Shown: positions 2-19,994 of the stretch, piece by piece | How the letters are laid out: each line of letters opens with the position of its first letter | How positions within the stretch are numbered: position 1 is the stretch's first letter | Source: Christensenella timonensis | GTDB lineage: Bacteria > Bacillota > Clostridia > Christensenellales > Christensenellaceae | DNA: 64,000 nt | Reading direction: 5' to 3' | Assembly (NCBI RefSeq): GCF_900087015.1 | Contig: NZ_FLKP01000002.1 | Span: 930,001 to 994,000, forward strand | Notes under the pieces: model-generated | The model's database searches: none | The model's input: only the letters and a program-made list of their open reading frames with translations | What the model was told of the DNA's origin: nothing | Position numbers and translations under genes: made by a program

Positions 2-856
2 GCAAAGGATGCGTATAACTTTGTATTCTTATCGCCCAACCAAGGAAACCCGTTCTGGGTGTCCGTATCGGAAGGCGTGAAGCAGACGGCCGAAGCGAAG
101 GGCGCGACGGTCACGGTATACGATGCACAGGACGACCCGGCAAAACAGGTCAGCCAGGCGGAGGATGCGATCCTCGCAGGCGTGGACGCGCTTTTTGTCA
201 GCCCGTTTGAAACGGATACCGGCACGGCGATCACGGAAAAGGCCAATGAAGCGAACATCCCGGTATTTATCCTCGATACAGGCGCGGAAGGCGATTACAC
301 CGCGTTTATTACGTCGGATAATAAGCAGGGCGGAAAAGTGGCGGCAGAATACTTGCTGGAAAATACTGGGGACGACAGGAACATTGCGGAGCTGCAGGGC
401 CTGATCGGCCGTGTGATCCCGGCGCAGCGCGGCGTTGGTTTTAACGAAGTGATGGATGAAAAGGGCGTGAAAGTCAACTATGTACAGCCGGCGGACTTCA
501 ACCGTTCCAAGGGCATGGACTTGATGGACACCTTCCTGACGCAGGATCCGGCGATCAATGCGGTATTCTGCTGGAACGACGAGATGGCGCTGGGCGCGAA
601 GGAAGCGATTGCGGCGCACGGCCTGACGGACAAGGTGCTGCTCATCGGTTTTGACGCGACGGACGAAGGCCTGCAGGCGGTAAAGGACGGAGAAATGGCC
701 GCTACCGTGGCACAGAACCCATTTGGCTTCGGTGAAATGGGCGTTGAGCTTGCGTACAAGCACTTCAACGGCGAAAGCTTTGAAAAAGACGTGCTGATCG
801 AGTGCGAACTGATCACAAAGGACAACGTGGACGAATATATGGCTTCCCACAAATAA
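2..856 (+). CDS. Sugar ABC transporter substrate-binding protein (5' truncated by window edge)
   Basis: The open frame enters from the left edge and ends at TAA 854-856, giving 284 codons of a type-1 periplasmic binding fold protein of the RbsB/ribose-galactose group. Seen: the N-terminal strand FVFLSPNQGNPFW, an Asp-Ala-Leu-Phe-Val-Ser-Pro loop, the second-lobe ITSDNKQGG segment, and FCWNDEMALGAKEAI followed by GFDAT, all typical of this family. The signal peptide and lipobox lie upstream of the window. The protein should bind a monosaccharide outside the membrane and hand it to an RbsC/RbsA-type permease presumably encoded further upstream. It directly precedes the glycyl radical enzyme genes on the same strand, so its ligand is probably their substrate or precursor. 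The ligand cannot be told from sequence. Confidence 0.93.
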   Translation, partial: AKDAYNFVFLSPNQGNPFWVSVSEGVKQTAEAKGATVTVYDAQDDPAKQVSQAEDAILAGVDALFVSPFETDTGTAITEKANEANIPVFILDTGAEGDYTAFITSDNKQGGKVAAEYLLENTGDDRNIAELQGLIGRVIPAQRGVGFNEVMDEKGVKVNYVQPADFNRSKGMDLMDTFLTQDPAINAVFCWNDEMALGAKEAIAAHGLTDKVLLIGFDATDEGLQAVKDGEMAATVAQNPFGFGEMGVELAYKHFNGESFEKDVLIECELITKDNVDEYMASHK

Positions 857-882
857 GGGCCCATATTCGATGCGGTATGCGC

Positions 883-907
883 GGGCATGGACGACCCGTC
901 CATGCCC
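883..907 (+). other. Intercistronic GC-rich hairpin after the binding-protein gene
   Basis: A perfect 10-bp inverted repeat, GGGCATGGAC / GTCCATGCCC with a 5-nt loop, lies 26 bp after the stop codon. No T-run follows, so it is more likely an mRNA-stabilising or processing hairpin than a terminator. It covers the ATG at 887, which argues against that codon as the next gene's start. Confidence 0.6.
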
Positions 908-931
908 CGCAATGCCGCGGCAGGCAGGGTG

Positions 932-1813
932 ATGGAAAAATATTGCGTCTTCGACATACAGAATTTTTCGTACCATGACGGGCCGGGAATCCGGACGACC
1001 GTATTCCTGAAAGGATGCAGCTTGCGCTGCTTTTGGTGTCAAAACCCGGAATCACAGGATGAAAACCCGGAATTGATGTACTTTGAGAATCTTTGTATCC
1101 GCTGCGGACAGTGCATAAGGGTATGTACGCGGGGAGCGTTGGAGGCAGGAAACAAACACGCGTTGCGCATTGGCCGCTCCGTATGCGATGCATGTGGAAA
1201 ATGCGCTGGAATATGTCCGGCTGGGGCGCTCAAGATAGCCGGAAAGTACATGACGGCGCAGGAGATATTGGAGCGGGTATGCATGGACAGGGAGTTTTTC
1301 GGGCAGGACGGCGGAATGACACTAAGCGGCGGGGAACCGCTGTATCACAAAAATGCAGCCGCTTTATTAAAGCTGGCGAGGGAAGAAGGAATCAACACCG
1401 CGGTGCAGACCGCGGGTCACATAGAACGGGAAGCGCTCAAGCAGGCCGCACGGTATACGGATATTTTTTTATATGACCTCAAAGCGTATGACGATGCAAA
1501 GCACAAAAAAGCATGCGGCAGCGGCAACGCGCGTATTTTAAGCAACCTGGAATGGCTGGCAGGAAACGGAGCGCGCGTGCGGGTCAGGATCCCGGTGATC
1601 CCCGGCGTAAACGACGGCTGGGAAGAGATAGGCAAGATCGCGAAATATGTGAAAGGGCTTGGCCTAAGCGCACCGGAGTTGCTGGCGTTTCACACGCTGG
1701 GAGCTGCAAAATACAGGGCGCTCGGACGGCGGTACGGGGCGGAAGGGCTTCCGGCTTCCGGCGGGGAGCAGCGCGCCGCACTGCAAGAGGCGGTCGGCCG
1801 CTTGTTCGGATAA
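932..1813 (+). CDS. Glycyl radical enzyme activating protein (radical SAM), first copy
   Basis: This is a PflA-family activase that installs the glycyl radical on its partner by SAM cleavage. Residues 29-36 carry the radical-SAM cluster motif CX3CX2C (GCSLRCFWC). A two-cluster ferredoxin-type insert follows (CIRCGQCIRVC and CDACGKCAGICP), as in activases of glycerol/choline-type enzymes and unlike plain PflA. GGMTLSGGEP is the SAM-binding GGE motif. I choose ATG 932 (293 aa): the 887 ATG lies in a hairpin and has no ribosome site, while 932 begins the conserved sequence (GTG 929 is also possible). It ends 14 bp before the first glycyl radical enzyme, its likely client. The paired arrangement is repeated downstream. 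Confidence 0.93.
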   Translation: MEKYCVFDIQNFSYHDGPGIRTTVFLKGCSLRCFWCQNPESQDENPELMYFENLCIRCGQCIRVCTRGALEAGNKHALRIGRSVCDACGKCAGICPAGALKIAGKYMTAQEILERVCMDREFFGQDGGMTLSGGEPLYHKNAAALLKLAREEGINTAVQTAGHIEREALKQAARYTDIFLYDLKAYDDAKHKKACGSGNARILSNLEWLAGNGARVRVRIPVIPGVNDGWEEIGKIAKYVKGLGLSAPELLAFHTLGAAKYRALGRRYGAEGLPASGGEQRAALQEAVGRLFG

Positions 1814-1827
1814 GGGAAGGGGCAGAC

Positions 1828-4098
1828 ATGGTTTCTGAAAGGATCCGAAAGATCAGGGATATTTCGTTTGATTACGGCGAGATGTCAAAGTACATATCCG
1901 TGCAGGAGATCAGATTTACGCCTGACCCGCAAAAAAGCCGGATCCTGCGGCATGCGGACGCTTTTTGCGCGGTGATGGACCAGCTCGAAACCAATTATAT
2001 CCCCGGGAGCCTGCTCGCGGGAAACGGTGGGGATAAGTTTGCAGCGCGCCCCAGGCACCTTTTTGCGGAGGAGATGGAAGAGATCAGGCAATATCCGCGA
2101 GGGTGCAGGAAAGAATTGCTGGATGCGCTGCGCGAGGAAATGTTTTTTATCTGGCCGTTTTCAGACGGGCACATCGCGCCCCATTTTGAACGGCTGTTGC
2201 AAACGGGGATCGACGGGCTGCTGGCGGAGATCGGTAAACGCATGAAAGATACCGGGCTCAGCCCGAAACAGGCAGCGTTTTTGGCAGCGGCAAAGCAGGA
2301 ATGGGAAGCGGTGAAGCGGCTTGCCCTGCGTTACGCAGGCTTTTTCAGGAAAAAAGCGGCGCAAGCGGCAAGGCAGGAGGAACGGGACGCCTATCTGGAG
2401 ACCGCAGATACGGTCACGCGCGTTCCCGCCGGCCCGGCAAGGACGTTCCGCGAGGCACTGCAAAGCGTATATTTCCTGCATATGTGCACACAGTTCGACG
2501 ACGTGAGCAACCATTCCTTCGGGCGGTTTGACCAGTACATGTACCCCTATTATGAGCGGGACATAGAAAAAGGCATTTTGACAAAAGAGCAGGCGCGCGA
2601 CTTGTTTTACGAATTTTGGTTGAAATTCACACCGGGGTATTTGAAATCACAGCACGACGGGCAACGTTCGGAGGGACAAGGCTTTTTAAAGGAGAACATC
2701 CCGGAAAACGGCCTTACCTGGCTGACGCTCAAATGCATCAGCCACGTGCGGCATTTAGACGATGGGCAGACCATGGATATCTGCGGATATACCAAAGGGG
2801 GCGGGGACGCGACCAATGACATATCGCGTATGGCGATCGAGGCGCTCGACCTTTTCAGGACGTTTGAGCCAAAGCCGGTCGTACAGTATACGGAAAAGAC
2901 AGACCAGGCGCTGATGGATCGATGCTACGCGATCCTTGCAAGCGGTCATGGGCATCCGGCGATCGCCTATCCCAAGAACGGCCGCGAAGGGCTGCGCAGG
3001 TATGACGGCTATTTTCGGGAAGAGGATATCGGTAACTATTGCCATATCGGCTGTGTGGAGCCCGGCATCGCGGGGAAAGGGTATACCGACCCGATGAATT
3101 GCTTTTTCAACCTCCCCAAGGCGTTGCTGGTGACGATACAGGGCGGGTATCTGGACGGTAAACAGATCGGCCTTTTGCAGGAAACACCGCGAACCTATGA
3201 AGCCTTCCTCAGGAATTTTTATGAACAGGTCGGTTATTTTATGGATTTGTATGTGGAGGGGAGCAACGATGCGAACCCTTTCTACGCACAATACTTTTTC
3301 CGACCGCTGGTATCCGCGGCGATCGACGGATGCATTAAAAAGGCGCTGGCCGTAGACGAGGGCGGAAGCGAATATTGGAGCAAGGGCATGAATATCGCGG
3401 GGCTTGCCACAGCGGCGGACTCGCTTTACGCAATCAAAAAACTGGTCTATGACGAACGGGAAATGGGCATCGGGGAGCTGGCGGGTATCCTGCAAGGCAA
3501 TTATGAAAAGCAGGATGCTTTGCGCAGCAGGCTTGCAAACCGACTGCCCAAATATGGAAACGGACAAGGAGAAGTGGACAGGATCGCCGCCGGCCTGGCG
3601 CGGTATTGCTGCGAGCGGGTACGCAGCTACCGCACCTATAATGGGAACAGGTACCGCCCGGGGCTATACAGCTTTTACGAAACGGTGAACCGGCTGGGAA
3701 GCGTGACGGGGGCGACGCCCAACGGGCGAAAAGCGGGGGAACGTTTTTCGCTGAATACGGCCCCGGATCATGGGGCGATCCGTAGCGGGATCACGCCGGC
3801 CCTGCGTTCTGTCACGGCCTTTGCGCATTCGCTGGCGGACAATGCCTGCACGGTGGACCTGCACCTTTGCGCGGGCACGCCGCCCGGGGCCATCCGCTCG
3901 GTAAGTGAATATTTGAACGGCCACGGCGCGCTGTACCTGCAAACGTCCGTGGTGGACAAAGAGGATATGGAAAGAGCGGAAATACACCCGGAGGATTACC
4001 GCGACCTGGTGGTACGTGTGACGGGTTTCAGCGCACTGTACGTGACGCTGGACGAAGCGACCCGCAATGAGATCAGGGAACGTTCCTATTGGGGGTGA
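1828..4098 (+). CDS. Glycyl radical enzyme, dehydratase/lyase type, first copy
   Basis: A 756-aa PFL/glycerol dehydratase family protein. The thiyl Cys is C409 in IGCVEP, followed two residues later by the Glu that acts as base in diol dehydratases; PFL instead has two adjacent Cys. The glycyl radical site is G733 in RVTGFSALY, close to the C-terminus as expected. SNHSFGRFDQYMYPYY forms the N-terminal half-barrel motif, with His-Ser-Phe where glycerol dehydratase has His-Ser-Ile-Ser. The start ATG 1828 follows GGGAAGGGG; the frame stays open upstream but there it lies in the activase gene. The reaction is probably elimination or C-C/C-O cleavage on a polyol or sugar-derived substrate, given the neighbouring sugar genes. 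The exact substrate is unknown. The enzyme would be oxygen-sensitive and cytoplasmic. Confidence 0.9.
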   Translation: MVSERIRKIRDISFDYGEMSKYISVQEIRFTPDPQKSRILRHADAFCAVMDQLETNYIPGSLLAGNGGDKFAARPRHLFAEEMEEIRQYPRGCRKELLDALREEMFFIWPFSDGHIAPHFERLLQTGIDGLLAEIGKRMKDTGLSPKQAAFLAAAKQEWEAVKRLALRYAGFFRKKAAQAARQEERDAYLETADTVTRVPAGPARTFREALQSVYFLHMCTQFDDVSNHSFGRFDQYMYPYYERDIEKGILTKEQARDLFYEFWLKFTPGYLKSQHDGQRSEGQGFLKENIPENGLTWLTLKCISHVRHLDDGQTMDICGYTKGGGDATNDISRMAIEALDLFRTFEPKPVVQYTEKTDQALMDRCYAILASGHGHPAIAYPKNGREGLRRYDGYFREEDIGNYCHIGCVEPGIAGKGYTDPMNCFFNLPKALLVTIQGGYLDGKQIGLLQETPRTYEAFLRNFYEQVGYFMDLYVEGSNDANPFYAQYFFRPLVSAAIDGCIKKALAVDEGGSEYWSKGMNIAGLATAADSLYAIKKLVYDEREMGIGELAGILQGNYEKQDALRSRLANRLPKYGNGQGEVDRIAAGLARYCCERVRSYRTYNGNRYRPGLYSFYETVNRLGSVTGATPNGRKAGERFSLNTAPDHGAIRSGITPALRSVTAFAHSLADNACTVDLHLCAGTPPGAIRSVSEYLNGHGALYLQTSVVDKEDMERAEIHPEDYRDLVVRVTGFSALYVTLDEATRNEIRERSYWG

Positions 4099-4109
4099 GG
4101 AGGCCGGCA

Positions 4110-5033
4110 GTGCAAAAGAATATTGGGATCGATATCGGCGGCACAAAAATCCGCATAGGCGTTATAGACGGTAAGGCGCATATCCTCGCGATGGAAAAGC
4201 TTCCCATGCAACACATCCCGGCAGGACAAATGATCGGCCGGATATGCGATGCGGCGGAGCGGATGCTGGAAAAAGCAGGGCTGTGTATGGAGGAAATCGG
4301 CGGGGTCGGGATCGGTGTCCCGGGCACGGTGGATCATGAAACAGGGGCCATAGAATACTGCCCGAATATCGGCTGGACAGGCCAGCCGGCAGGCAAATAC
4401 TTCCGTGGGCGGTGGAACAAGAACATCGCCATTGACCAGGATTCCCGGCTGGCGGCCTTGGGAGAGGCCTTATACGGCGCAGGCAGGGGATACGGCAGCA
4501 TCGCTTGTATCACGCTGGGGACGGGGATCGGCTGCGGCGTCGTGATGGATGGGAAAATATTCCGCGGCGGCATGAACACGGCGGGGGAACTGGGGCATAT
4601 CTGCGTCGAGCCGGGAGGCAGGAGATGTGCCTGCGGAAACCGCGGATGCCTGGAACGGTATTGTTCGGGTACGGGGATCCTGCTCGGCGCGAGGGAACGG
4701 TTTTCGCAAAAGCTGGATGCGGGTGCGCGCACGGAAGATGTTTTTGAGATGGCATACGGCGGGGACGGGGATGCGCTTGCACTGATCGCTGATTGCGTCC
4801 GCATTTTGGCGCAAGGCATCGTGGCGCTGGTGAACGTACTGTCGCCGGAGGCGGTCATCTTGAGCGGAGGATTATGCGCCCATGAAAAGCTTTTGGTAGA
4901 ACCGCTCAAAGAGCGGGTATATGCGCAGGGATATCCTGCGTGGACGAACAGGAAGAAGCTGGCCGTCAAAAAAGCCGAGCTGGGAGAATATGCGCCCCTC
5001 GTCGGCGCGGCGGCAATCGGCACAGGAGCATAA
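4110..5033 (+). CDS. ROK family sugar kinase
   Basis: A 307-aa ROK kinase. The N-terminal phosphate loop is DIGGTKIRIGVIDG; the ROK zinc signature appears as a His-Ile-Cys-Val-Glu segment and then CACGNRGCLE; LGTGIGCGVV and the C-terminal LSGGL motif are present, as in glucokinase/allokinase/fructokinase members. The start GTG 4110 follows GAGGAGG by a good distance and lies 11 bp after the preceding stop; an in-frame TTG at 4089 would overlap that gene and is less likely. It sits between the two glycyl radical enzymes, which suggests that the imported sugar or a product is phosphorylated here. The hydroxyl and sugar specificity cannot be read. Confidence 0.9.
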   Translation: MQKNIGIDIGGTKIRIGVIDGKAHILAMEKLPMQHIPAGQMIGRICDAAERMLEKAGLCMEEIGGVGIGVPGTVDHETGAIEYCPNIGWTGQPAGKYFRGRWNKNIAIDQDSRLAALGEALYGAGRGYGSIACITLGTGIGCGVVMDGKIFRGGMNTAGELGHICVEPGGRRCACGNRGCLERYCSGTGILLGARERFSQKLDAGARTEDVFEMAYGGDGDALALIADCVRILAQGIVALVNVLSPEAVILSGGLCAHEKLLVEPLKERVYAQGYPAWTNRKKLAVKKAELGEYAPLVGAAAIGTGA

Positions 5034-5073
5034 GCACAATAGGATGTGGATCATCATGAACGGAGGTTTTAAC

Positions 5074-7548
5074 ATGAGATACTATTCACCGAAAAACCAT
5101 AAGGACACGGGACACCAATTTTTGGAACGGCCGGTGGTCAGGAGCGCGAGGATCGAGGGGCTGCGCAATACCCTGGTCGACGCGACGCCGCAGATATGCT
5201 CGGACAGGGCGCGGCTTTTGACCGAGGCATACCGCGAGAACCTTTCCGACCCGGTGGAAATAAAGCGGGCGAAAGCGTTTGCGCATGTACTCGACAATAT
5301 GGAGATCGATATACTGGACGGGGAGCTGATTTTGGGCAGCCTGGGCGTAAAGCCGAGAACCGCGCCCATCTTCCCAGAGTTTGGGATGGACTGGCTGGTC
5401 GAAGAGCTTAATGGAAACCCCGTACGCCCGGAGGAACGCCCCGGCGATCGTTATGTGATCAGTGAAGAGGATGAAGCCATATTGCGCGATATCCATGCGT
5501 TCTGGCACGGAAACGACCATGAGACCCGGTGCAGGGCGGCGCTGCCACAGGAAACGGAAACAGCGCGCGCGATCGGCGTGACGGATTCTTACTGGCTGAT
5601 GATCGGCGGAGACGGGCATTTGACGGTCGATTTGAAGGGCGTGATCGACAAGGGCCTTTGCGATGTGATCGCGCGCGCGGAGCAGCGGCTGGAAACGCTC
5701 GACCTTTCAGACCCGGAACAGGAAAAACAGCAATCGTTTTTGAAGGCGGTCATCCTGGCAAACCAGGCGGTCATCCGCTTTGCGGCGAGGTATGCCGCGC
5801 TGGCACGGGAAAAGGCGGCGCAGGAAAAAGACGAGGCGAGGAAAGCCGAGCTTTTGCAAATGGCTGAGGTGTGCGAGCATGTACCTGCGCAGGCGGCGCG
5901 CAGCTTCCACGAGGGGGTACAGGCGGCATGGTTCATCAATTTGACGATGCAGCTCGAAAACAACGGACATTCCATTTCGCTGGGACGCTTCGACCAGAAC
6001 CTGATCGACCTTTACAAGAAGGACATCGAGGCAGGCGTGATCGAATATCCTGACGCACTGGAGCTGGTGGAATGTTTGTTCCTGAAAATGTTCCAGCTCT
6101 TAAAGATCACGTGCTGGGGGAATACCAAAGCCTTTGCCGGATACCAATTGTTCCAGAATTTTACCATCGGCGGACAGGACAAGAACGGCAAGGACAGTAC
6201 GAACGAGCTTTCGTTCCTGATCCTTAACGCGCAGGCGGCGATCGCGCTCAATACGCCGTCCATTTCGCTGCGCTACCACAACCGTATTTCTGAGCGCTTA
6301 CTGTATGCGGCGTTCGACGTGGTACGCATCGGCGGCGGACAGCCGGCTATGTACAGTGACGAGGTGTATATCCCTTCGCTCATCAACCGCGGTATCCCGT
6401 GGGACGATGCGGTCAATTATTCCGTCGTCGGGTGTGTGGAAGCGGTCATCGAGGGCAAACAGACGTGCCGCCCGAACGGTGCGGGCTTCATCAACTTAGG
6501 CAAGATCATGGAGCTGGCGTTATATGACGGGAAAGACCCCAAAACAGGCATATGTATGTGCGCAGGAAACGGCGACCTCAATACCTTCCGGAATTTCGAC
6601 GAGCTGTATGAGGCGTTCAAGATACAGGCGCGCTATTATTTCAGGCAGCAGGTGATCAACGACAATACGATCGACCGCGTGATGGGTGAAGGCATCGCCG
6701 ATCCGTATGTCTCGTCGCTGGTCTCGGACTGCATTACGCGCGGTAAGACCATGAAGGCGGGCGGCGCGGTCTACGATTATTGCGGGCCGCTTTACGTGGG
6801 CGTGGCCAATGTGGGAAATATCCTGGCGGCGGTAAAGAAGGTCGTATTCGATGAAAAGAAGCTGACGGGCTCGCAGCTTAAACATGCCCTGGAAACCAAT
6901 TATGAGGACATGGAAACGACGCCCACCGGACCGGAAATCCAGAGGATGATGCTGGATGCGCCCAAATATGGAAACGACGATGATTATGTGGACGATATCA
7001 TGGTGGATTACTTCCGCTTTATTTGTGAGGAAACGGCGAAATACCACACGACGCGTTATGGCAAAGGGCCGATCGGCGGCACGTGGCAGCCGTCCACCAG
7101 CTCCGTATCTTCCAATGTGCCTATGGGCGAGTTCGTAGGGGCGACGCCGGACGGCAGGAAAGATGGGGAAGCGCTGGCGGATACCTCTTCGCCTACGCAC
7201 GGGACGGATACGCACGGCATCACCGCTTCGTTAAAGTCGGTAGGAAAGCTGCCGACGATCCTCGTTTCGGGCGGGCAGCTTTTGAATATCAAGGTCATGC
7301 CGGCTTCCCTCGAGCCGGGTATGCCGGTCAGGAAGCTCGCGCATGTGATCCGTACCTATTTCAGCGATTTTAAAGGGATGCATGTGCAGATCAACTGTGT
7401 CTCGGCGGAAACGCTGCGCGCCGCGCAGGCCGATCCTTCGGAATATAAAGACCTGATGGTACGTGTGGCGGGGTACAGCGCGCTGTTCACACCTCTTGAC
7501 AAGGCGCTGCAGGACGATATCATCGAGCGTACGCAGCACGCGGTATAA
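5074..7548 (+). CDS. Glycyl radical enzyme, dehydratase type, second copy
   Basis: An 824-aa glycyl radical enzyme, clearly distinct from the 1828-4098 copy. The active-site Cys is C454 in VGCVEA (Cys-x-Glu), the glycyl site is G800 in RVAGYSALF, and ENNGHSISLGRFDQ carries the His-Ser pair that in glycerol/propanediol dehydratases contacts the substrate hydroxyls. The start ATG 5074 has CGGAGG seven bases upstream; in-frame ATGs at 5044 and 5056 would begin before that site. The gene is about 70 residues longer than the first copy, and its match to dehydratases is cleaner. It is followed 23 bp later by its own activase. I infer dehydration of a vicinal-diol-containing sugar or sugar phosphate; the substrate is unproven. 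Confidence 0.92.
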   Translation: MRYYSPKNHKDTGHQFLERPVVRSARIEGLRNTLVDATPQICSDRARLLTEAYRENLSDPVEIKRAKAFAHVLDNMEIDILDGELILGSLGVKPRTAPIFPEFGMDWLVEELNGNPVRPEERPGDRYVISEEDEAILRDIHAFWHGNDHETRCRAALPQETETARAIGVTDSYWLMIGGDGHLTVDLKGVIDKGLCDVIARAEQRLETLDLSDPEQEKQQSFLKAVILANQAVIRFAARYAALAREKAAQEKDEARKAELLQMAEVCEHVPAQAARSFHEGVQAAWFINLTMQLENNGHSISLGRFDQNLIDLYKKDIEAGVIEYPDALELVECLFLKMFQLLKITCWGNTKAFAGYQLFQNFTIGGQDKNGKDSTNELSFLILNAQAAIALNTPSISLRYHNRISERLLYAAFDVVRIGGGQPAMYSDEVYIPSLINRGIPWDDAVNYSVVGCVEAVIEGKQTCRPNGAGFINLGKIMELALYDGKDPKTGICMCAGNGDLNTFRNFDELYEAFKIQARYYFRQQVINDNTIDRVMGEGIADPYVSSLVSDCITRGKTMKAGGAVYDYCGPLYVGVANVGNILAAVKKVVFDEKKLTGSQLKHALETNYEDMETTPTGPEIQRMMLDAPKYGNDDDYVDDIMVDYFRFICEETAKYHTTRYGKGPIGGTWQPSTSSVSSNVPMGEFVGATPDGRKDGEALADTSSPTHGTDTHGITASLKSVGKLPTILVSGGQLLNIKVMPASLEPGMPVRKLAHVIRTYFSDFKGMHVQINCVSAETLRAAQADPSEYKDLMVRVAGYSALFTPLDKALQDDIIERTQHAV

Positions 7549-7571
7549 CCAAAGTAAAGGCAGGGCAACCG

Positions 7572-8507
7572 ATGTTTTTTGATAACCAGGAAGAACGGAA
7601 CACGTTTGGGATTGTTTTCAATATTGAGAAATACCATATCCACGACGGCGAGGGTATCCGTACGAACGTCTTTTTGAAGGGCTGTAACCTGTGGTGCCCG
7701 TGGTGCTGCAACCCGGAATCACAGGTGTTTGCGGCACAGATCGCCATACACGAGAACCTGTGCCAGCGGTGCGGGTATTGCTGCCAGGGCATTTGCCCGC
7801 AGGAGGCGATTTCCCAGGACGGCGACGGGAAAATATGGATCGACAAGGAAAAATGCAACGCCTGCGGCCTGTGCGTGGAAAAGTGTCCCTATTCCGCGCG
7901 CGAGCTGTATGGGAAACGTATGAGCGTTGCGGAAGTGATCGCAGAGGTGGAAAAGGACAGCGCTTATTATTTCCAGTCGGGCGGGGGAATGACGATCTCC
8001 GGCGGGGAACCGTGCATGCAGGCGGATTTTGCAAGCGAGCTTGCAAAAGCTGCACGGCGCAGGTATATCCATGTGGCGATGGAAACGGCGGGGGCCGTCC
8101 CCAAAGAACAATTCTGGAAAGTGGCGCAGCATGTGGACGAGCTTTTGTGCGACCTGAAGTTTACCGACCCGGAAAAGTTCAAGTCGATCTCCGGCGTGCC
8201 GCTTTATGTGGTGAAAGAGAATATCGCGTATGCACGTCAAAACGGGAAATATGTTAAGCTCCGCTGCCCCATCATCCCGACGCTCAACGATGATGAAGGA
8301 CATCTTGCCGGTATTGTCGCCTGGGCGAAGGAGCTTGATATCACGGACGTGGATATCCTGCCTTTCCACCAGCTCGGCAAGTACAAATACGATTCGCTCG
8401 ATTATGACTATACGCTGGGGGAGTTTGCGGATATGGACAAGGCCGTAGCGCAGAAAATTGCCGACGGCATGTGCGCGCAGGGCCTGCACGCGATCGTAGG
8501 GGGCTGA
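7572..8507 (+). CDS. Glycyl radical enzyme activating protein (radical SAM), second copy
   Basis: A 311-aa radical-SAM activase. CX3CX2C at residues 38-45 (GCNLWCPWCC, with an extra adjacent Cys) binds the SAM cluster. Two further four-Cys clusters follow (CQRCGYCCQGICP, CNACGLCVEKCP), and GGGMTISGGEP is the GGE motif. The start ATG 7572 follows AAAGGCAGGG. It probably serves the second enzyme just upstream. Only modest identity to the first activase is visible outside the motifs, so the two enzyme-activase pairs look like separate lineages rather than a recent duplication. Cytoplasmic; it needs reduced ferredoxin or flavodoxin. Confidence 0.93.
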   Translation: MFFDNQEERNTFGIVFNIEKYHIHDGEGIRTNVFLKGCNLWCPWCCNPESQVFAAQIAIHENLCQRCGYCCQGICPQEAISQDGDGKIWIDKEKCNACGLCVEKCPYSARELYGKRMSVAEVIAEVEKDSAYYFQSGGGMTISGGEPCMQADFASELAKAARRRYIHVAMETAGAVPKEQFWKVAQHVDELLCDLKFTDPEKFKSISGVPLYVVKENIAYARQNGKYVKLRCPIIPTLNDDEGHLAGIVAWAKELDITDVDILPFHQLGKYKYDSLDYDYTLGEFADMDKAVAQKIADGMCAQGLHAIVGG

Positions 8508-8534
8508 CAAGAAGGCGGCAAGATGTGTTATAAT
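8504..8534 (+). promoter_or_regulatory. Internal sigma-A promoter before the FGGY kinase
   Basis: Extended -10 TGTTATAAT (hexamer 8529-8534) with a weak -35, CTGACA at 8504-8509, 19 bp upstream. It would allow separate expression of the kinase and mutarotase genes. Confidence 0.5.
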
Positions 8535-8584
8535 GTGCGTATCTTATTTCATAAGAAATTTACAGAATTGGTGGCGTGAGAAAT

Positions 8585-10126
8585 ATGAAAAACACAGAGT
8601 GCTTACTTGGGATCGATATGGGGACGAGCAGCGTGAAGGCCGGGCTTTTCGACCTGCAGGGAACCCCGATCGCTTTTGCGGATGAAACGTATCCGCTATA
8701 TACGCCGAGATCCGGCTGGGCGGAACAGACGGTAGAGGAGTGGTGGAACGCAATCTGCAAGGCGACGCGCAAGCTTGTCGACAAAAGCGGGGTATCGCCG
8801 TCGGCGATCATGGGTATGAGCGTGGATACGACGTGCTGTACCGTGATGATCGCCGATCGGGATATGAACATCCTGCGCCCGGCGATCATGTGGATGGACG
8901 TGCGCGCCTCAAAACAGGCGAAAGAAATCACGGCGACGGGCGACCCAGCGCTGAAGATCAACGGGTACGGCAACGTATCGGCGGAATCCATGCCCGCAAA
9001 GGCGTTGTGGATCAAACAGAACGAGCCGGAGCTCTACAAAAAAGCGGAGCACGTGTTTGAATGCGTGGACTGGCTGATGCATAAGCTGACGGGAGAGCTG
9101 ACGGCGAGCATCGATACGACGGCGCCGCGCTGGTATTACGACCGCCCAAACGGCGGCTGGCCGGTTTCGTTCTACGAAAAGATCGGCCTTGCAGACGTGC
9201 TGGATAAATTCCCCAAAGACGTGCTGGATCTGGGAACGCCCGTCGCGGGCCTTACCAAAAAAGCGGCGGAAGATTTGGGCCTTACGGCGGGAATCCCCGT
9301 CGGCGAAGGTGGTGCGGATGCCTTTGTAGGGATGGTGGGGTTAAACGTTGTGCAGCCGGGGCGCATCGCCATGATCACCGGGACGTCGCACCTGCACCTG
9401 GGACTGACGGAAAAGGAAATGCATTCCAAGGGCATGTGGGGTTCTTACCCCGACGCGGTGATCCGTGGCCTGCAGATGATCGAGGGCGGCCAGACCTCCA
9501 CGGGAGCGATCGTCAACTGGTTCAAGACGAATTTCTGCGGGGATATCCGCCAGTTGGCGGAAAAAGAGGGCAGGAGCGTATACGACCTGCTGAACGAAGG
9601 GGCGCAGGAGCTGCCCATCGGCGCGGACGGACTGCTGGCACTCGATTATTTCCAGGGGAACCGTACGCCGTATGCCGACCCTGACGTGCGCGGCATGTTT
9701 TACGGGCTGTCGCTTTCGCATACGCCGTACCACCTATACCGGGCGATCATCGAATCAATCTGCTATGGGACGGAAGCGATCATGCAGACGTTCCGCGACG
9801 GGGGGATGGAGCCGGACGGCATCTATATTTCGGGCGGCGCGGTGAAGAGCGCCTTCTGGACGCAGGCGCACGCCGACGTCTGCAACCTGCCCATCTTTAT
9901 CCCCAAGGTCACGGAGGCGCCGTGCCTGGGGTCGGCGATATTGGGCGCCGTCGCCTGCGGGGCGTATGCGGACATCCAGACGGCGGCCAAGAACATGGTG
10001 ACGATCGAGGACAGGGTGGAGCCGGATGCCGGGCGGCATGAGCAATACATGTTCTATTATGAAAAGTACAAGGAAGCGTACCAGGTATCCAAGGGCTGGA
10101 TGCACGAGGTGACGACGCATTCCTGA
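8585..10126 (+). CDS. FGGY family carbohydrate kinase (xylulokinase-like)
   Basis: A 513-aa FGGY kinase (cytoplasmic ATP-dependent phosphorylation of a ketose, aldose or polyol). Seen: the N-terminal phosphate-1 motif DMGTSSVKAGLFD, a WMDVRA segment, ITGTSHLHLG, and near the C-terminus SGGAVKSAFWTQAHADV and GSAILGAVACG, the FGGY adenosine signature region. Length matches XylB-like members. The start ATG 8585 is preceded by a weak GTGAG; GTG 8576 is the alternative. It follows the second activase by 77 bp containing a promoter. Together with the mutarotase and the epimerase downstream it suggests phosphorylation of a ketose to feed the pentose phosphate route. Specificity unassigned. Confidence 0.9.
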   Translation: MKNTECLLGIDMGTSSVKAGLFDLQGTPIAFADETYPLYTPRSGWAEQTVEEWWNAICKATRKLVDKSGVSPSAIMGMSVDTTCCTVMIADRDMNILRPAIMWMDVRASKQAKEITATGDPALKINGYGNVSAESMPAKALWIKQNEPELYKKAEHVFECVDWLMHKLTGELTASIDTTAPRWYYDRPNGGWPVSFYEKIGLADVLDKFPKDVLDLGTPVAGLTKKAAEDLGLTAGIPVGEGGADAFVGMVGLNVVQPGRIAMITGTSHLHLGLTEKEMHSKGMWGSYPDAVIRGLQMIEGGQTSTGAIVNWFKTNFCGDIRQLAEKEGRSVYDLLNEGAQELPIGADGLLALDYFQGNRTPYADPDVRGMFYGLSLSHTPYHLYRAIIESICYGTEAIMQTFRDGGMEPDGIYISGGAVKSAFWTQAHADVCNLPIFIPKVTEAPCLGSAILGAVACGAYADIQTAAKNMVTIEDRVEPDAGRHEQYMFYYEKYKEAYQVSKGWMHEVTTHS

Positions 10127-10142
10127 TAGGAAAGGAATGCCT

Positions 10143-10166
10143 GTTTTGATAAAAGGCTATCAAAAC
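10143..10166. promoter_or_regulatory. Perfect inverted repeat between kinase and mutarotase genes
   Basis: GTTTTGATA and TATCAAAAC form 9-bp arms around a 6-nt centre. It could be an operator for the SorC-type regulator downstream, or an mRNA hairpin. No T-run follows, so it is not a terminator. Confidence 0.45.
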
Positions 10167-10193
10167 CAATCATAATAAAAGGAGAAGAAGGTC

Positions 10194-10661
10194 ATGAAAA
10201 AGAGTGGGATCTTGAATCCGCAGCTCGCGGAGCTTGTGGCAAGCATGGGGCATGGAGATATCCTGATGGTGGCGGACAGGGGCGTTCCCTTCCCGCAGCA
10301 CGACGAAACGGTGTGTATCGACCTCTCGGTGCGCCCGGGCCTGCCGGGCCTGATCGACGTACTGGAGACCGTGCTGGAGGAGCTGGAGATCGAGAGCGTG
10401 ATTATCCCCAACGAAACGCAGGAGAAAAACCCGGAAATGTATCGAAAGATGCAGGACGTCCTGGCAAAGGTGAAAAACAAGGGCAACGACATTGTGGAAG
10501 AAAATATCCCCCATGTAGATTGTAAAAACCTGTTTTTGACAGGGGACACCGTAGACCCGGAGGTGATCGACCTGTGGGGGCGGGAAGTGAAAGGGATCGT
10601 ACGGACGGGGGAATGTACGCCGTTTTCTTATATTATGCTGGTGAGCGGTACGACATTCTGA
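10194..10661 (+). CDS. rbsD: RbsD/FucU family sugar mutarotase (D-ribose pyranase-like)
   Basis: A 155-aa protein of the RbsD/FucU fold, which interconverts pyranose and furanose (or alpha and beta) forms of a sugar before kinase action. The catalytic His is H20 in MGHGD, followed by the conserved Asp28 in ADRG; the C-terminal VRTGECTPFSYIMLVSG matches the RbsD signature (Arg-Ser/Thr-Gly-Glu-Cys-x-Pro-Tyr/Phe). It is about 15 residues longer than classic RbsD. The start ATG 10194 has AAAAGGAGAAG. Last gene of the kinase operon; a terminator follows. Because the context is not a plain ribose operon, the true sugar may be another pentose or deoxyhexose. Confidence 0.85.
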   Translation: MKKSGILNPQLAELVASMGHGDILMVADRGVPFPQHDETVCIDLSVRPGLPGLIDVLETVLEELEIESVIIPNETQEKNPEMYRKMQDVLAKVKNKGNDIVEENIPHVDCKNLFLTGDTVDPEVIDLWGREVKGIVRTGECTPFSYIMLVSGTTF

Positions 10662-10683
10662 CCGAATACGATAAAAGGAACGT

Positions 10684-10722
10684 AAAAGCTGCGGGGGAGA
10701 AAACTCCTCCGGCGGCTTTTTT
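10684..10722 (+). terminator. Intrinsic terminator of the sugar operon
   Basis: A GC-rich stem (AAAGCTGCGGGGGAG against CTCCTCCGGCGGCTTT, with G-U pairs) closed by an AAAA loop and followed by a T-run. Confidence 0.85.
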
Positions 10723-10782
10723 GATAGGGGAGGGCATTTTATAAAACTGTCAAACGTGAATGGTTTTAAAAATAAATAACAA

Positions 10783-10812
10783 TTGACACAACAAAAACGG
10801 TTTTGCTATAAT
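10783..10812 (+). promoter_or_regulatory. Consensus promoter of the SorC-type regulator gene
   Basis: TTGACA 10783-10788 and TATAAT 10807-10812 with an 18-bp spacer and an extended TGC before the -10. Confidence 0.9.
10792..10805. promoter_or_regulatory. Near-palindrome inside the promoter spacer, probable autoregulatory operator
   Basis: CAAAAACGGTTTTG is symmetric at 6 of 7 base pairs and lies wholly between -35 and -10, where a bound repressor would block polymerase. Confidence 0.45.
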
Positions 10813-10871
10813 GGATTCAGGCAATATACACATTTATGTCCGGGGCGCCGGACATGGCGAGGGAGACAGGA

Positions 10872-11873
10872 ATGGACTCTATGATCGATTTAAGCATTGG
10901 AAAAAAGGCAAGCCAATACGAGCAAATGATCCAGATCGCAAAGCTGTATTATATGGAAGATATGTCGCAGCAGCAAATCGCGGACAGGGTCAATATGTCG
11001 CGTTCCAATGTTTCCCGTATCCTGAAATCCTGCAAGGAGCTCGGGATCGTGGAGATCCGTATCCACGAGGCGTCGCTGAGGTCTTTTGAGATCAAAAAGA
11101 AGCTGATCAACCGTTTCGGGATCGGCTCGGTGGTGATCACGCCGCGGGTGGACGACCGGGAAGCGAGCGCAGAGAACGCGGGAATCGCGGCGGCACGTTA
11201 TGTGGAAAACGTCTTGACGGACAACATGAGCGTGGGGATCGGCTGGGGGGCGAGCGTATACAAAATGGTGAAAGCCTTTACGCCGACCGTGCTCAACAAT
11301 ATGCAGATCATCCAACTGATGGGCGGCACGCGCATCAAAGAAGCATACAAGGACGGCGTGCAGCTGACGCTTGACTTTGCGGAAAAAACGAGCGGTACGC
11401 CGTATATATTAAACGCGCCGCTGCTCGTCACGACGCGGCAGGTACGCGATTTGTTCATTGAAGAAGGCGGGATCAAGGATCAGCTGGAAATGACCAAAAA
11501 GATCGACGTGGCACTGGTGACGCTGGGTACGAACGAGCCGGAAAGCAACGCCATGGTACGCGCAAACTTCATGACGCCGGAACAATCGAAGGAGCTTTAC
11601 GACGCGGGGCTTTACTCGCACATATTAGGGCAGCACATCGACATCCGCGGGAAGATCGGCAATACGGAATTAAACGACCGCGTAGTGGGCATCAACATTA
11701 ATACGTTCAAGAAAATCCCTTTGAAGATCGGGATCGTGGTAGGCGAGCAAAAGGTGAAGGCCATCGTATCGGCCCTGATGGGAGGCTTCCTCGATACGCT
11801 GATCACCGACGAGCCGACCGCGTTCGCAGTGGAAGATTATGCGGCAAAGCACGGGCTATATAAACCGTTTTAA
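10872..11873 (+). CDS. SorC/DeoR-type sugar-binding transcriptional regulator
   Basis: A 333-aa SorC family regulator. Residues about 15-60 hold a helix-turn-helix (MSQQQIADRVNMSRSNVSRILK). The rest is the sugar-phosphate-binding domain, with SVGIGWGASVYKMV, MGGTRI and a C-terminal LITDEPTA segment typical of the family. The start ATG 10872 is preceded by GAGGGAGA; in-frame ATGs at 10836 and 10854 lie further upstream without a ribosome site. These proteins usually repress sugar operons until a phosphorylated sugar binds. The likely targets are its own promoter, the glycyl radical/kinase operon and the epimerase gene 27 bp downstream. Confidence 0.92.
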   Translation: MDSMIDLSIGKKASQYEQMIQIAKLYYMEDMSQQQIADRVNMSRSNVSRILKSCKELGIVEIRIHEASLRSFEIKKKLINRFGIGSVVITPRVDDREASAENAGIAAARYVENVLTDNMSVGIGWGASVYKMVKAFTPTVLNNMQIIQLMGGTRIKEAYKDGVQLTLDFAEKTSGTPYILNAPLLVTTRQVRDLFIEEGGIKDQLEMTKKIDVALVTLGTNEPESNAMVRANFMTPEQSKELYDAGLYSHILGQHIDIRGKIGNTELNDRVVGININTFKKIPLKIGIVVGEQKVKAIVSALMGGFLDTLITDEPTAFAVEDYAAKHGLYKPF

Positions 11874-11900
11874 ATTTTGGACAGGAATGGAGAGAAAACA

Positions 11901-12563
11901 ATGCATAAAGTAGCAGCAACAATACTGACATGTAATAATGCTTTTTTGGGGCAGGCGGTACTGGCGGCGCAGCACGGCGGCGCAGATCAATTGCACGTGG
12001 ATATCATTGACGGCAGGTACGCGTCCAATTTTTCATTTGGGCCCAAGACCATCGCCGACCTAAAAGAAGTTGTGGATATTCCGATCGAAGTTCATTTCGA
12101 GCTTTATGACCCGCAATATTATATCGATATGTTTGCGGAGGCGGGCGCTGATATGATGACAATACAAATGGATGGATGCGCCTGCCCTATTCAGGCGGTA
12201 AGCCGGGTCAGGCGTTTGGGAAAACAGGTGGGCGTCGGTTTAAAACCTACGGAACGTGTTGAAAGCATAGAATATATCGCGCACCACCTCGATTACCTGA
12301 TCATGATGAGCGTGGAGCCCGGTTTTGGCGGGCAGAAGCTGGAGGAATCGATTTATACGAAGATAGCAGCTGCCAAGAAGATGTTCGCGGAGCAGGGGCT
12401 TGACATCCCGATCTACGTGGACGGGAGCGTCAACAAGGAAACGGCGCCTAAGCTCCTTGAGAGCGGCGCGGACGTGCTGATCGTCGGTTCGTCGGTTTTT
12501 TCCAGCAACAAGGTAACGGACGAAGAAATCAAAGCAGGGATGCAGTATTTTAAAAACCTTTGA
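11901..12563 (+). CDS. Ribulose-phosphate 3-epimerase family protein
   Basis: A 220-aa TIM-barrel epimerase. Seen: LHVDIIDG (metal-binding His and catalytic Asp), VHFELYDP, the MSVEPGFGGQ loop that grips phosphate, and YVDGSVN with the second catalytic Asp, followed by IVGSSVF. The N-terminal half departs from housekeeping Rpe (ASNFSFGPKTI instead of the usual VPNITFGP), so it may be a pathway-specific enzyme such as an allulose- or ribulose-phosphate epimerase. The start ATG 11901 follows GGAGAG. Probably co-transcribed with the regulator. Its product could enter the pentose phosphate pathway. Confidence 0.85.
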   Translation: MHKVAATILTCNNAFLGQAVLAAQHGGADQLHVDIIDGRYASNFSFGPKTIADLKEVVDIPIEVHFELYDPQYYIDMFAEAGADMMTIQMDGCACPIQAVSRVRRLGKQVGVGLKPTERVESIEYIAHHLDYLIMMSVEPGFGGQKLEESIYTKIAAAKKMFAEQGLDIPIYVDGSVNKETAPKLLESGADVLIVGSSVFSSNKVTDEEIKAGMQYFKNL

Positions 12564-12566
12564 GAG

Positions 12567-12598
12567 AAAAACAGCCATGAAAGTGTGGCTGTTTTTTT
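12567..12598. terminator. Intrinsic terminator, probably bidirectional
   Basis: AAAAACAGCCA and TGGCTGTTTTTTT around an 8-nt loop, between the epimerase gene (+) and the end of the membrane protein gene (-). Confidence 0.85.
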
Positions 12599-14525: not shown

Positions 14526-14642
14526 AATGATACCCCGAAAGTAAGCTTTCCACGCAATGCAATTATATCACTTTTGTCTTGCAACGTCTAATTTTTCAAG
14601 CAAAAAATACACAGCGATGACCGCCTGCAAAAAGTATAGGTT

Positions 14643-14669
14643 TTTTACAAAAAACAATAAATTTTACAA
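14643..14669. repeat. Direct repeat TTTTACAA upstream of the dehydrogenase operon
   Basis: TTTTACAA occurs at 14643-14650 and 14662-14669 (19-bp period). A related CTTTACAA lies at 14747-14754. They flank the promoter and may bind a regulator. Confidence 0.4.
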
Positions 14670-14686
14670 CTATGAAGGAAATAGCA

Positions 14687-14715
14687 TTGACAGGAAGCAA
14701 CGGAAATAGTATCAT
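14687..14715 (+). promoter_or_regulatory. Promoter of the dehydrogenase-complex operon
   Basis: TTGACA 14687-14692 and TATCAT 14710-14715 with a 17-bp spacer. Confidence 0.6.
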
Positions 14716-14747
14716 AAAAACATGAAATATAACTTTTGCAAAGAAAC

Positions 14748-14761
14748 TTTACAAATGTAAA
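14748..14761. promoter_or_regulatory. Palindrome downstream of the promoter
   Basis: TTTACA-AA-TGTAAA has perfect 6-bp arms and sits about 35 bp past the -10, in the untranslated leader of the first dehydrogenase gene; a possible repressor site. Confidence 0.4.
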
Positions 14762-14809
14762 ATATCAATGCGAAAGAAACTCAAATTTATCAAATAAGCG
14801 GGTGAAAAA

Positions 14810-15766: not shown

Positions 15767-15779
15767 CGGAGGTTATTAA

Positions 15780-16760: not shown

Positions 16761-16772
16761 GGGGACGCGCAA

Positions 16773-17735: not shown

Positions 17736-17749
17736 AAAGGAAGAATAAA

Positions 17750-19483: not shown

Positions 19484-19515
19484 TCAGCGTAACACTCCTT
19501 AAAAATATGGTACAT

Positions 19516-19553
19516 AAAAAGAGGCAGCCGCTTTAAGCGGTCAGCCTCTTTTT
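19516..19553. terminator. Intrinsic terminator of the dehydrogenase operon
   Basis: AAAAAGAGGC / GCCTCTTTTT outer stem, CCGCT / AGCGG inner stem, then T-run. It could also serve the minus-strand thioredoxin transcript. Confidence 0.85.
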
Positions 19554-19573
19554 ATGATTGGGGGTATATGCAA

Positions 19574-19591: not shown

Positions 19592-19600
19592 CTGAAGCAA

Positions 19601-19915: not shown

Positions 19916-19994
19916 AATAAATACACACTCCTTACACTTTCTTATTGTTTGTTAAAATATATTTACCCAGTGAGGATATCATTAAACAAATTAT

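Follow-up and report, generated by a model that had tools for sequence, protein, structure and literature searches.

The ten-gene run at the start of the Christensenella timonensis window (the whole stretch of DNA analysed, 64,000 nucleotides) may belong to an anaerobic operon for the catabolism of a five-carbon polyol or anhydro-polyol, in which one glycyl radical enzyme (GRE2), an FGGY kinase, an epimerase, and an E1-type complex would form a route and a second glycyl radical enzyme (GRE1) would serve a separate branch; the probability of this reading was put at about one third. The genes, their motifs, the clade placement of the enzymes, and the associations between genes are observations; the substrates, the regiochemistry, the order of the steps, and the role of the E1 complex are what we infer.

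In brief, an RbsABC-type transporter would import the polyol or anhydro-polyol, and activated GRE2 would take the hydrogen from C2 and expel the oxygen at C1 (YbiW-type regiochemistry) to give a 1-deoxypentulose. This would be phosphorylated at C5 by the FGGY kinase and set at C3 by the 3-epimerase to yield 1-deoxyxylulose-5-phosphate (DXP), an acyloin that E1–E2–E3 would cut between C2 and C3 into acetyl-CoA, glyceraldehyde-3-phosphate, and NADH. In the separate branch, GRE1 would form a 2-deoxypentose, which would be equilibrated by RbsD, phosphorylated by the ROK kinase or the ribokinase, and cleaved by a DeoC encoded elsewhere. More doubtful still is that a GRE, a pentulose kinase, a 3-epimerase, and a PDH-type complex constitute an undescribed fermentative module that has served two or more GRE clades. 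Such a module would lead from radical deoxygenation of an (anhydro-)polyol via 1-deoxypentulose and DXP to acetyl-CoA and glyceraldehyde-3-phosphate, its cleavage being DXP-synthase-like chemistry in the catabolic direction and without CO2. A passage of PMC12441222 names 1-deoxyfructose-6-phosphate as the product of YbiW/PflD, and one of PMC3424233 describes DXP raised in vivo by a mutant E. coli PDH E1.

Gene content and glycyl radical motifs

The ten genes (2–12563, + strand) were found intact and tightly spaced, each GRE with its own activase, as in the original prediction. Pfam cut-offs were passed for PFL-like and Gly_radical (both GREs), ROK, FGGY_N/C, RbsD_FucU, Sugar-bind, and Ribul_P_3_epim. 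With 887 (activase 1) and 5071 (GRE2) as starts, intergenic gaps were −10 to 174 nt; starts at 932 and 5074 change two of them to 75 and 40 nt, and activase 1 probably starts at 932, not 887. The predicted boundaries held for the ten genes inside them and left out RbsA and RbsC, which lie 5′ of the binding-protein gene, as well as the E1–E2–E3 genes. The operon probably extends functionally to this complex (14810–19483), from which the ten-gene run is separated by an inverted FusC-type gene, and we think that it matters most for the pathway. Upstream, ribokinase-type PfkB and BtpA/SgcQ genes lie in divergent orientation. The features are as follows (L017, coordinates of that locus; others, of the window).

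L017 13229–14755: RbsA, preceding the RbsB-type gene
L017 14771–15775: RbsC, preceding the RbsB-type gene
2–856, +: RbsB-type sugar-binding protein, Peripla_BP_4 over cut-off; 5′ end beyond the window (full length, L017 15831–16856)
887–1813, +: GRE activase 1, radical SAM CX3CX2C, Fer4 matches; TIGR02494 320.7 bits (cut-off 174.35)
1828–4098, +: GRE1, 756 aa, divergent; PF02901 401.4 bits, PF01228 36.9 bits
4089–5033, +: ROK-family sugar kinase; PF00480 216 bits, best NCBIfam model 186.8 (below cut-off 260.35)
5074–7548, +: GRE2, 824 aa, clade near YbiW; TIGR01774 767.3 bits (cut-off 678.2)
7572–8507, +: GRE activase 2, radical SAM CX3CX2C; TIGR02494 306.3 bits, over cut-off
8576–10126, +: FGGY pentulose-type kinase; PF00370/PF02782
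10194–10661, +: RbsD/FucU sugar mutarotase (D-ribose pyranase); NF008761 122.5 bits (cut-off 93)
10783–10812, +: sigma-70-like promoter before SorC, perfect TTGACA-18-TATAAT, from a consensus scan only
10836–11873, +: SorC-family regulator; PF04198 196.1 bits
11877–12563, +: ribulose-phosphate 3-epimerase (RPE) family enzyme; PF00834 183.1, TIGR01163 188.2 (below 212.6), NF004076 165.5 (above 165)
14810–15766, +: E1 alpha (E1a), PDH/acetoin-dehydrogenase type; pyruvate dehydrogenase E1 alpha equivalog TIGR03182 350.7 (below cut-off 393.85)
15780–16760, +: E1 beta (E1b); NF006667 418.8 (above 321)
16773–17735, +: E2 acyltransferase; TIGR01349 211.2 (below cut-off 445)
17750–19483, +: E3 dihydrolipoyl dehydrogenase; TIGR01350 534.9 (above 408.8), matched over residues 131–577, with about 130 additional residues at the N-terminus

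The RbsB-type protein was matched best by RbsB (231.5 bits, under the cut-off of 337). For the SorC regulator, the closest named model was the deoxyribonucleoside regulator DeoR (204.1 bits, under the cut-off of 420) and the closest solved relative DeoR 8r7y (127.1 bits). A terminator-like hairpin (10692–10711) lies just 5′ of the promoter-like site, one of 20 such sites in 19.8 kb (14.9 expected).

Both GREs, which belong to an oxygen-sensitive class of radical enzymes, combine a PFL-like with a C-terminal glycyl radical domain (PF02901 and PF01228 above cut-offs), the radical-glycine motif RVxGY/F (4015–4029 in GRE1, 7462–7476 in GRE2), and the eliminase-type Cys-x-Glu (GCVE at 3049–3060 and 6430–6441), and each is adjoined by an activase over the TIGR02494 cut-off. 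Active-site cysteine and radical glycine are Cys409 (Cys409-x-Glu411; codon 3052) and Gly733 (codon 4024) in GRE1, and Cys454 (Cys454-x-Glu456; codon 6433) and Gly800 (codon 7471) in GRE2. Neither enzyme reached an NCBIfam equivalog cut-off, and identity to YbiW was 27% (GRE1) and 41% (GRE2), which bears out the view that a sugar operon here encodes two eliminase-type GREs of uncharacterised function. Both were under all model cut-offs for HypD, CutC, HpfG/HpsG, indoleacetate and 4-HPA decarboxylases, and PFL. This 2.65 Mb genome encodes 16 GREs, and the genus holds up to 16 per genome.

Associations of the kinase, the epimerase, and the E1 complex

The FGGY kinase carries both FGGY_N and FGGY_C domains; its best equivalog was ribulokinase (334.1, below the cut-off of 428), with xylulokinase at 291 (below 380.25), and its closest solved relatives are named xylulose/ribulose kinases. 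Among 18 family genomes searched at 1e-150, close relatives occurred at nine places in five genomes; at seven of the nine, a GRE lay no more than 3 kb away, against 0.32 expected. The set GRE2–activase–FGGY–RPE recurs at L025 and L049 and, in another genus, at L146, so that the predicted conservation of the neighbourhood stood for this part; the double-GRE set was found only in this genome. The closest GRE2 relatives (75–78% identical) accompany FGGY and an epimerase without a ROK label (at L025, as judged by eye), and these three loci make it more likely that a kinase uses the product of the GRE, contrary to the expectation that the sugar is phosphorylated first. GRE2 relatives are paired with FGGY at L050–L052 as well, and at L051 an L-ribulose-5-phosphate 3-epimerase scored over its cut-off. 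A second GRE clade (the GREs of L020 and L130; pair support 1.0) likewise accompanies FGGY (86% and 84% identical, respectively) and RPE (37% and 41%). At L020, a cupin-like gene that the proposed scheme does not explain lies between GRE and FGGY.

The closest solved relatives of E1a are pyruvate dehydrogenases, and no acetoin-dehydrogenase model was among the profile matches listed for it. In another genome of the genus (G126), each gene of a syntenic run FGGY–SorC–RPE–E1a–E1b–E2–E3 matches its window counterpart (84, 76, 84, 95, 99, 99, and 93% identity, in that order), and no gene in the 20 kb fetched there is labelled as a GRE. Of 22 places with E1a genes, 5 lay within 10 kb of a GRE, compared with 1.25 expected (P = 0.007); the other 17 were farther away, including the E1a–E1b pairs of L109, L110, and L112 and the loci L120–L122. 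One locus (L114) holds E1a–E1b–E2–E3–RbsA–RbsC–RbsB–GRE–activase in a single run. Five sugar-transporter runs (L123, L125, L127–L129) contain E1 genes and no GRE label; hence, E1 may act there on a substrate that does not come from a GRE.

It is possible, if somewhat unlikely, that the kinase and the epimerase take ordinary pentuloses (D-ribulose or D-xylulose to xylulose-5-phosphate), that E1 is an ordinary pyruvate dehydrogenase, and that the GREs carry out an unrelated C–O or C–X elimination that releases such a pentose from its ether or conjugate. The solved relatives of FGGY and E1a agree with this, as do L111, where a xylulokinase that passes its cut-off lies roughly 2.6 kb away from an E1 complex, and L138 in G628, a transporter–FGGY(59%)–RPE(45%)–SDR run that fits ordinary pentitol catabolism, the 16 kb fetched there being free of any GRE. 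The other phylum FGGY match (G549, 52%; L139) has no GRE label within 20 kb. However, the proximity of seven of the nine close FGGY relatives to a GRE argues against it, and xylulose-5-phosphate would presumably enter the pentose phosphate pathway, leaving a dedicated E1 in the operon unneeded.

Placement of GRE2 and GRE1

GRE2 passed the model of the PFL2/glycerol-dehydratase subfamily, TIGR01774, and GRE1 did not (356.9, cut-off 678.2). YbiW was the top-scoring solved relative of GRE2, with glycerol/diol dehydratases also among the best. Placement of GRE2 among the YbiW-like enzymes was not borne out by a tree in which it falls in its own clade (support 1.0) and YbiW in another (0.993); in another tree, the GRE2 clade groups with YbiW, L006, and L007 (support 0.999). 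An unlikely alternative builds on the latter grouping and on the ROK gene immediately 5′ of GRE2: the ROK kinase would phosphorylate an imported 1,5-anhydrohexitol or anhydropentitol, GRE2 would open the ring of the phosphate like YbiW/PflD, an aldolase encoded elsewhere would cleave the 1-deoxyketose phosphate, and FGGY and epimerase would serve another sugar. A Chloroflexota plasmid (L132) fits this, in that a YbiW-like GRE and an activase share the locus with ROK and ABC transporter genes; this GRE lies in the YbiW clade, its exact place being weakly supported (0.444). Against it speak the FGGY–epimerase company of the closest GRE2 relatives, the loop after Cys-x-Glu, which is GK-xxx-RP-x-G in GRE2 and mostly GK-x-GYR-xx-GM in YbiW-like rows, and the fact that no gene in the annotated loci bears an FsaA label.

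For GRE1, scoring the best few candidates per genome returned only its own genome among 248 of the order (at 1e-100) and a true relative in one other genome among 398 of the phylum. The only close relative found (50% identical; G427, also found as JASEJE010000009.1) lies in a locus ordered DeoR–PfkB–DeoC–activase–RbsB–RbsA–RbsC–GRE1′–RbsD, with a ribokinase-type PfkB and a DeoC of 244.7 bits (> 117.3). Its position beside DeoC and a ribokinase suggests that GRE1 is a separate branch. The window cluster contains no DeoC, and four matches lie elsewhere in the genome. The evidence on GRE1 comes from this one other locus.

It is quite improbable that GRE1 and GRE2 act sequentially on one sugar, as originally predicted from the pair; they share orientation, the ROK gene lies between them, and the gaps are short, but they were unpaired in the other loci examined, GRE2 being absent from the fetched G427 stretch and a GRE1-labelled neighbour from the GRE2-relative loci L025, L049, L050–L053, and L146. 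Least probable is that both are small-diol dehydratases (glycerol, propanediol) with chance sugar-gene neighbours: such enzymes are the best solved relatives of GRE1 and among those of GRE2, and an iron-type alcohol dehydrogenase is encoded at L017 2592–3761, some 9.5 kb upstream of RbsA, but identity to a GDH-like enzyme is 31% (GRE1) and 44% (GRE2), the position of glycerol dehydratase Asp447, which we take to contact the substrate, is Met in GRE1 (with an Asp two positions earlier) and Gly in GRE2, and neither the ten genes nor those read upstream include a recognisable microcompartment gene.

Implications and comparison with known systems

If the proposed polyol pathway is correct, two functions would be added to the GREs, and sugar alcohols and anhydrosugars would have a new fermentative fate in anaerobes. 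We know of no description of a deoxysugar route via radical deoxygenation of a polyol, phosphorylation, and splitting into central metabolites, and a catabolic PDH-type complex cleaving a deoxysugar phosphate would, to our knowledge, be the first. The proposal offers a concrete, testable role for the GREs found repeatedly next to one FGGY kinase subfamily, and it singles out the genus as rich in unknown radical enzymes.

YbiW/PflD anhydroglycolysis (1,5-anhydroglucitol-6-phosphate and 1,5-anhydromannitol-6-phosphate lyases) shares with GRE2 the superfamily, Cys-x-Glu, and, by analogy, the C1–O cleavage to a 1-deoxyketose proposed here; it differs in sequence (41% identity), clade, and active-site loop, and the present operon has ABC genes instead of a PTS, and FGGY and 3-epimerase with no FsaA-type aldolase in the ten genes. 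The B12-independent GRE glycerol/propanediol dehydratases have fold family, Cys-x-Glu, and activase in common with GRE1 and GRE2, whereas Asp447 is unconserved here and the context is a sugar operon. Deoxyribose utilisation resembles the G427 locus in ribokinase-type PfkB, DeoC, and RbsD, but the latter also contains a GRE and activase, and we know of no described case of a GRE step feeding deoxyribose utilisation. Finally, acetoin and pyruvate dehydrogenase complexes have the same E1a, E1b, E2, and E3 gene set and, like DXP synthase, perform the ThDP chemistry on methyl-ketone acyloins proposed here, whereas a pentulose kinase, a 3-epimerase, and GREs are encoded near the present genes, whose products would cleave a sugar phosphate.

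Operon layout and flanking genes

All ten genes from which the original prediction had read an anaerobic sugar pathway built on two glycyl radical enzymes (GRE1 and GRE2) with ROK and FGGY kinases (RbsB, activase, GRE1, ROK, GRE2, activase, FGGY, RbsD, SorC, and epimerase) were present and intact according to open reading frame reading as well as NCBIfam and Pfam scans, with intergenic gaps of -10 to 174 nt. On the upstream side, the operon is continued by RbsC and RbsA in L017, the stretch preceding the window, where genes for a ribokinase-type PfkB and a BtpA/SgcQ-family protein stand divergent from it; a literature search on BtpA/SgcQ function gave nothing useful. A consensus scan placed a terminator-like hairpin and a sigma-70-like promoter between RbsD and SorC, and hence these last two genes, SorC and epimerase, may be transcribed separately. 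Downstream, an inverted FusC-like gene (Pfam FUSC_2) separates the epimerase from E1a of a dehydrogenase complex.

Window 1828-4098 (+): GRE1
Window 5074-7548 (+): GRE2
Window 10692-10711: terminator-like hairpin between RbsD and SorC
Window 10783-10812: perfect sigma-70-like promoter between RbsD and SorC
Window 14810-19483: E1a, E1b, E2, and E3 of a PDH/acetoin-dehydrogenase-type complex, downstream of the FusC-like gene
L017 10775-12720 (-): ribokinase-type PfkB (281.3 bits, below the 299.65 cut-off) and BtpA/SgcQ-family protein (226.8 bits, above the 153.4 cut-off), sharing this interval

In window 20000-64000, several of the ten large open reading frames scanned were housekeeping genes (RuvB, queuosine enzymes, argininosuccinate lyase, penicillin-binding protein), and an additional Peripla_BP_4 protein is encoded at 61313-62542.

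Classification and relatives of the two glycyl radical enzymes

The operon is real, and it encodes two uncharacterised GREs, one of them of a rare lineage, in a GRE-rich genome. Both enzymes carry the Cys-x-Glu and radical-glycine motifs, and each is adjoined by a CX3CX2C activase. In NCBIfam, GRE2 scored above the PFL2/glycerol-dehydratase subfamily cut-off and above no equivalog cut-off, while GRE1 stayed below even the subfamily cut-off; the known GRE equivalogs were thus rejected for both. The best solved relatives were YbiW (620.9 bits) and glycerol dehydratase (598.1 bits) for GRE2, and a diol dehydratase (261.1 bits) for GRE1. GRE2 is 41%, 37%, and 44% identical to YbiW, PflD, and a GDH-like enzyme, respectively, and GRE1 27%, 28%, and 31%; YbiW and PflD are reportedly the enzymes studied by Ma et al. 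At the position of Asp447, a substrate-contacting residue of glycerol dehydratase, GRE2 has Gly and GRE1 has Met. Given the cut-offs, this position, and the gene context, a plain glycerol or diol dehydratase was judged unlikely.

In a 60-row GRE tree, a few rows of which are one gene fetched twice, the GRE2 clade had a support of 1.0 and YbiW fell into a separate clade (0.993); in a smaller tree, the two groups join with a support of 0.999. The loop after Cys-x-Glu reads GK-xxx-RP-x-G in the GRE2 clade and mostly GK-x-GYR-xx-GM in YbiW-like rows. GRE1 paired solely with its relative in genome G427 (support 1.0), and the next neighbour of this pair, joining at 0.961, was a GRE of genome G126 (L119; 28% identical).

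Among 248 genomes of the order, GRE1 matched its own genome alone at 1e-100 (best four candidates per genome scored), and among 398 genomes of the phylum its own genome, G427, and G483 at 1e-85 (best two scored); with scoring limited to the best few candidates, a relative may have been overlooked where a genome is rich in GREs. The G427 relative is 50% identical. The G483 match (34%) resembles an ordinary glycerol dehydratase; the gene beside it is, by eye, aquaporin-like. Beyond G427, no GRE1 relatives were found in its genus, order, and class (6, 13, and 17 genomes) and none among viral contigs, while six plasmid records matched at 27-29% identity. A scan of genome contigs with two peptide patterns returned one locus; the GRE1 relative locus on JASEJE010000009.1 belongs to a Bacillota MAG.

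At 1e-240, GRE2 had relatives in four of the 248 genomes of the order; the window genome is one of the four, and they belong to a single genus (best four candidates per genome scored). One further search scored the best three, and with either limit relatives in GRE-rich genomes may have been overlooked.

The window genome has 16 PF02901 matches in 2.65 Mb, and 17 of the 18 family genomes have at least one (nine each in G094 and G126; 13 in G176, several of them fragments). Of the 16 GREs, 13 were scanned with NCBIfam (all except those in L009, L011, and L014), none reaching an equivalog cut-off. A second sugar GRE set lies in L023, whose PfkB exceeds the ribokinase cut-off (310.6 vs 299.65) and which plausibly constitutes an anhydrosugar-phosphate route. 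Similar-looking cupin-like proteins of 177-193 aa adjoin several GREs of one broad clade, and in L020 the gene sits between GRE and FGGY. Their by-eye label, D-lyxose isomerase, was rejected, as the L018 protein had no NCBIfam model at 1e-25 and matched only Pfam Cupin_2, below cut-off.

L023 1562-7850: ribokinase-type PfkB, YbiW-clade GRE, activase, Gfo/Idh oxidoreductase, and ketose-bisphosphate-type class II aldolase
L018 17078-17611, L019 4441-4992, L020 6231-6767, L021 9418-9999: cupin-like proteins

Genomic partners of GRE2, the FGGY kinase, and the E1 complex

Neighbours at compared loci were labelled by their best BLAST match to a small hand-made label set, labels below about 30% identity giving a family name only, and genes without a label were named by eye. 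L025 and L049 are near-copies carrying transporter genes (inside which the L025 stretch stops), a Gfo/Idh oxidoreductase, the GRE2 relative, activase, FGGY, SorC, epimerase, and a Zn-alcohol dehydrogenase. In another genus of the same family (L146), the order is GRE2 (75%), activase, FGGY (70%), epimerase (33%), and Zn-alcohol dehydrogenase. More distant GRE2 relatives (56-57%) are accompanied by other FGGY kinases; one of the distant loci, L051, combines an L-ribulose-5-phosphate 3-epimerase above cut-off with a gene of class II aldolase/4-epimerase type, and L050 and L052 resemble it by eye. The GRE2 relative in L053 (54%) is without such kinase, aldolase, or epimerase genes. Across these loci, the recurring partners are hence a kinase and a pentulose-phosphate 3-epimerase, and not ROK.

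Relatives of the window FGGY (E-value of at most 1e-150) occupied nine places in five of the 18 family genomes, seven of them within 3 kb of a GRE compared to 0.32 expected under a uniform-placement model that ignores the kinship of the genomes, by which chance adjacency was rejected. Two of the seven, L020 and L130, have GREs of another clade (pair support 1.0), here too accompanied by a transporter and an epimerase gene; these GREs being sisters, one FGGY subfamily accompanies more than one GRE clade. In L138, an FGGY-epimerase-SDR run is without a GRE label, so that kinases of this type may act on ordinary pentuloses as well. The two places away from a GRE are G176:C14, on a 14.6 kb contig, and G126 at about 590 kb (L108), the most telling exception.

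L130 (G126:C1:808001-824000) 1133-12373: transporter, epimerase, FGGY (84%), GntR-type, activase, and GRE
L108 (G126:C1:578001-598000) 6532-19954: GRE-less syntenic operon FGGY-SorC-epimerase-E1-E2-E3

L108 and the window are syntenic, at 73-99% identity, over FusC, FGGY, SorC, epimerase, E1a, E1b, E2, E3, and the three genes that follow. FGGY-SorC-epimerase is directly followed by E1a-E1b-E2-E3, with FusC upstream of the operon instead of between epimerase and E1a as in the window, and no GRE, RbsABC-type transporter, ROK, or RbsD was found in the fetched 20 kb. By this synteny, the E1 complex and the kinase/epimerase genes form one unit, and the GRE block was gained in the window or lost in G126.

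Elsewhere, the complex adjoins an FGGY (67% identical) beside a GRE2 relative in G094 (L052); L114 reads E1a-E1b-E2-E3-RbsA-RbsC-RbsB-GRE-activase in one direction; and L116 has, on one strand, GRE, activase, further genes, transporter, SDR, FGGY, Fe-ADH, E1a, and E1b (some labels at only 24-32%). E1a lay within 10 kb of a GRE at 5 of 22 places (1.25 expected; P = 0.007, uniform-placement simulation), which is modest evidence against chance adjacency, the G126 synteny being the stronger argument. Counting against the link, E1a was farther than 10 kb from a GRE at 17 of the 22 places. In G075, G054, and G031, close relatives of E1a form E1a-E1b pairs with no GRE label within 20 kb, and five sugar ABC-transporter runs (L123, L125, L127, L128, L129) contain PDH-type E1 genes with no GRE label; some of these runs carry FGGY or class II aldolase.

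Proposed chemistry and comparison with known systems

The G427 locus is ordered DeoR-type regulator, PfkB, DeoC, activase, RbsB, RbsA, RbsC, GRE1 relative, and RbsD, with PfkB (309.7 vs 299.65 for ribokinase), DeoC (244.7 vs 117.3), and RbsD (110.6 vs 93) above cut-off. This deoxyribose-type setting suggests that the product of GRE1 is a 2-deoxypentose, for which, on chemical grounds, ribitol or D-arabitol would be dehydrated with loss of the C2 hydroxyl. DeoC has four matches above cut-off in the window genome, none of them within the cluster. ROK could act on the GRE1 product or on an anhydrosugar ahead of GRE2; in L132 (CP069395.1, a Chloroflexota plasmid), ROK, GRE, and activase are adjacent, with D-allose-type ABC genes.

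E. coli XylB phosphorylates 1-deoxyxylulose. YbiW and PflD convert anhydrohexitol phosphates to 1-deoxyfructose-6-phosphate (PMC12441222), and by analogy GRE2 would yield a 1-deoxypentulose. A methyl-ketone acyloin phosphate would be cleaved via acetyl-ThDP to acetyl-CoA and glyceraldehyde-3-phosphate; a 3-epimerase beside the ketone would matter since the acyloin that the ThDP enzyme splits has its carbinol at C3. In E. coli, aceE mutants raised 1-deoxyxylulose-5-phosphate (DXP) about 20-fold in DXS/DXR-deficient cells, an effect that concerns the synthetic direction and mutants, the wild-type gene being without it (PMC3424233). This rise supports that a PDH-type E1 can reach DXP. For the proposed pathway, the substrates, the regiochemistry, and the direction of flux are all inferred.

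Among the matches listed for open-licence literature that connects GREs to sugars, polyols, acetoin dehydrogenase, or deoxysugars, no title or abstract opening described this gene set, and PDB code 9RCO with glycyl radical gave no match in open-licence literature. The two-GRE operon is a variation on known GRE eliminase pathways, and its link to a ThDP dehydrogenase complex is bold but testable.
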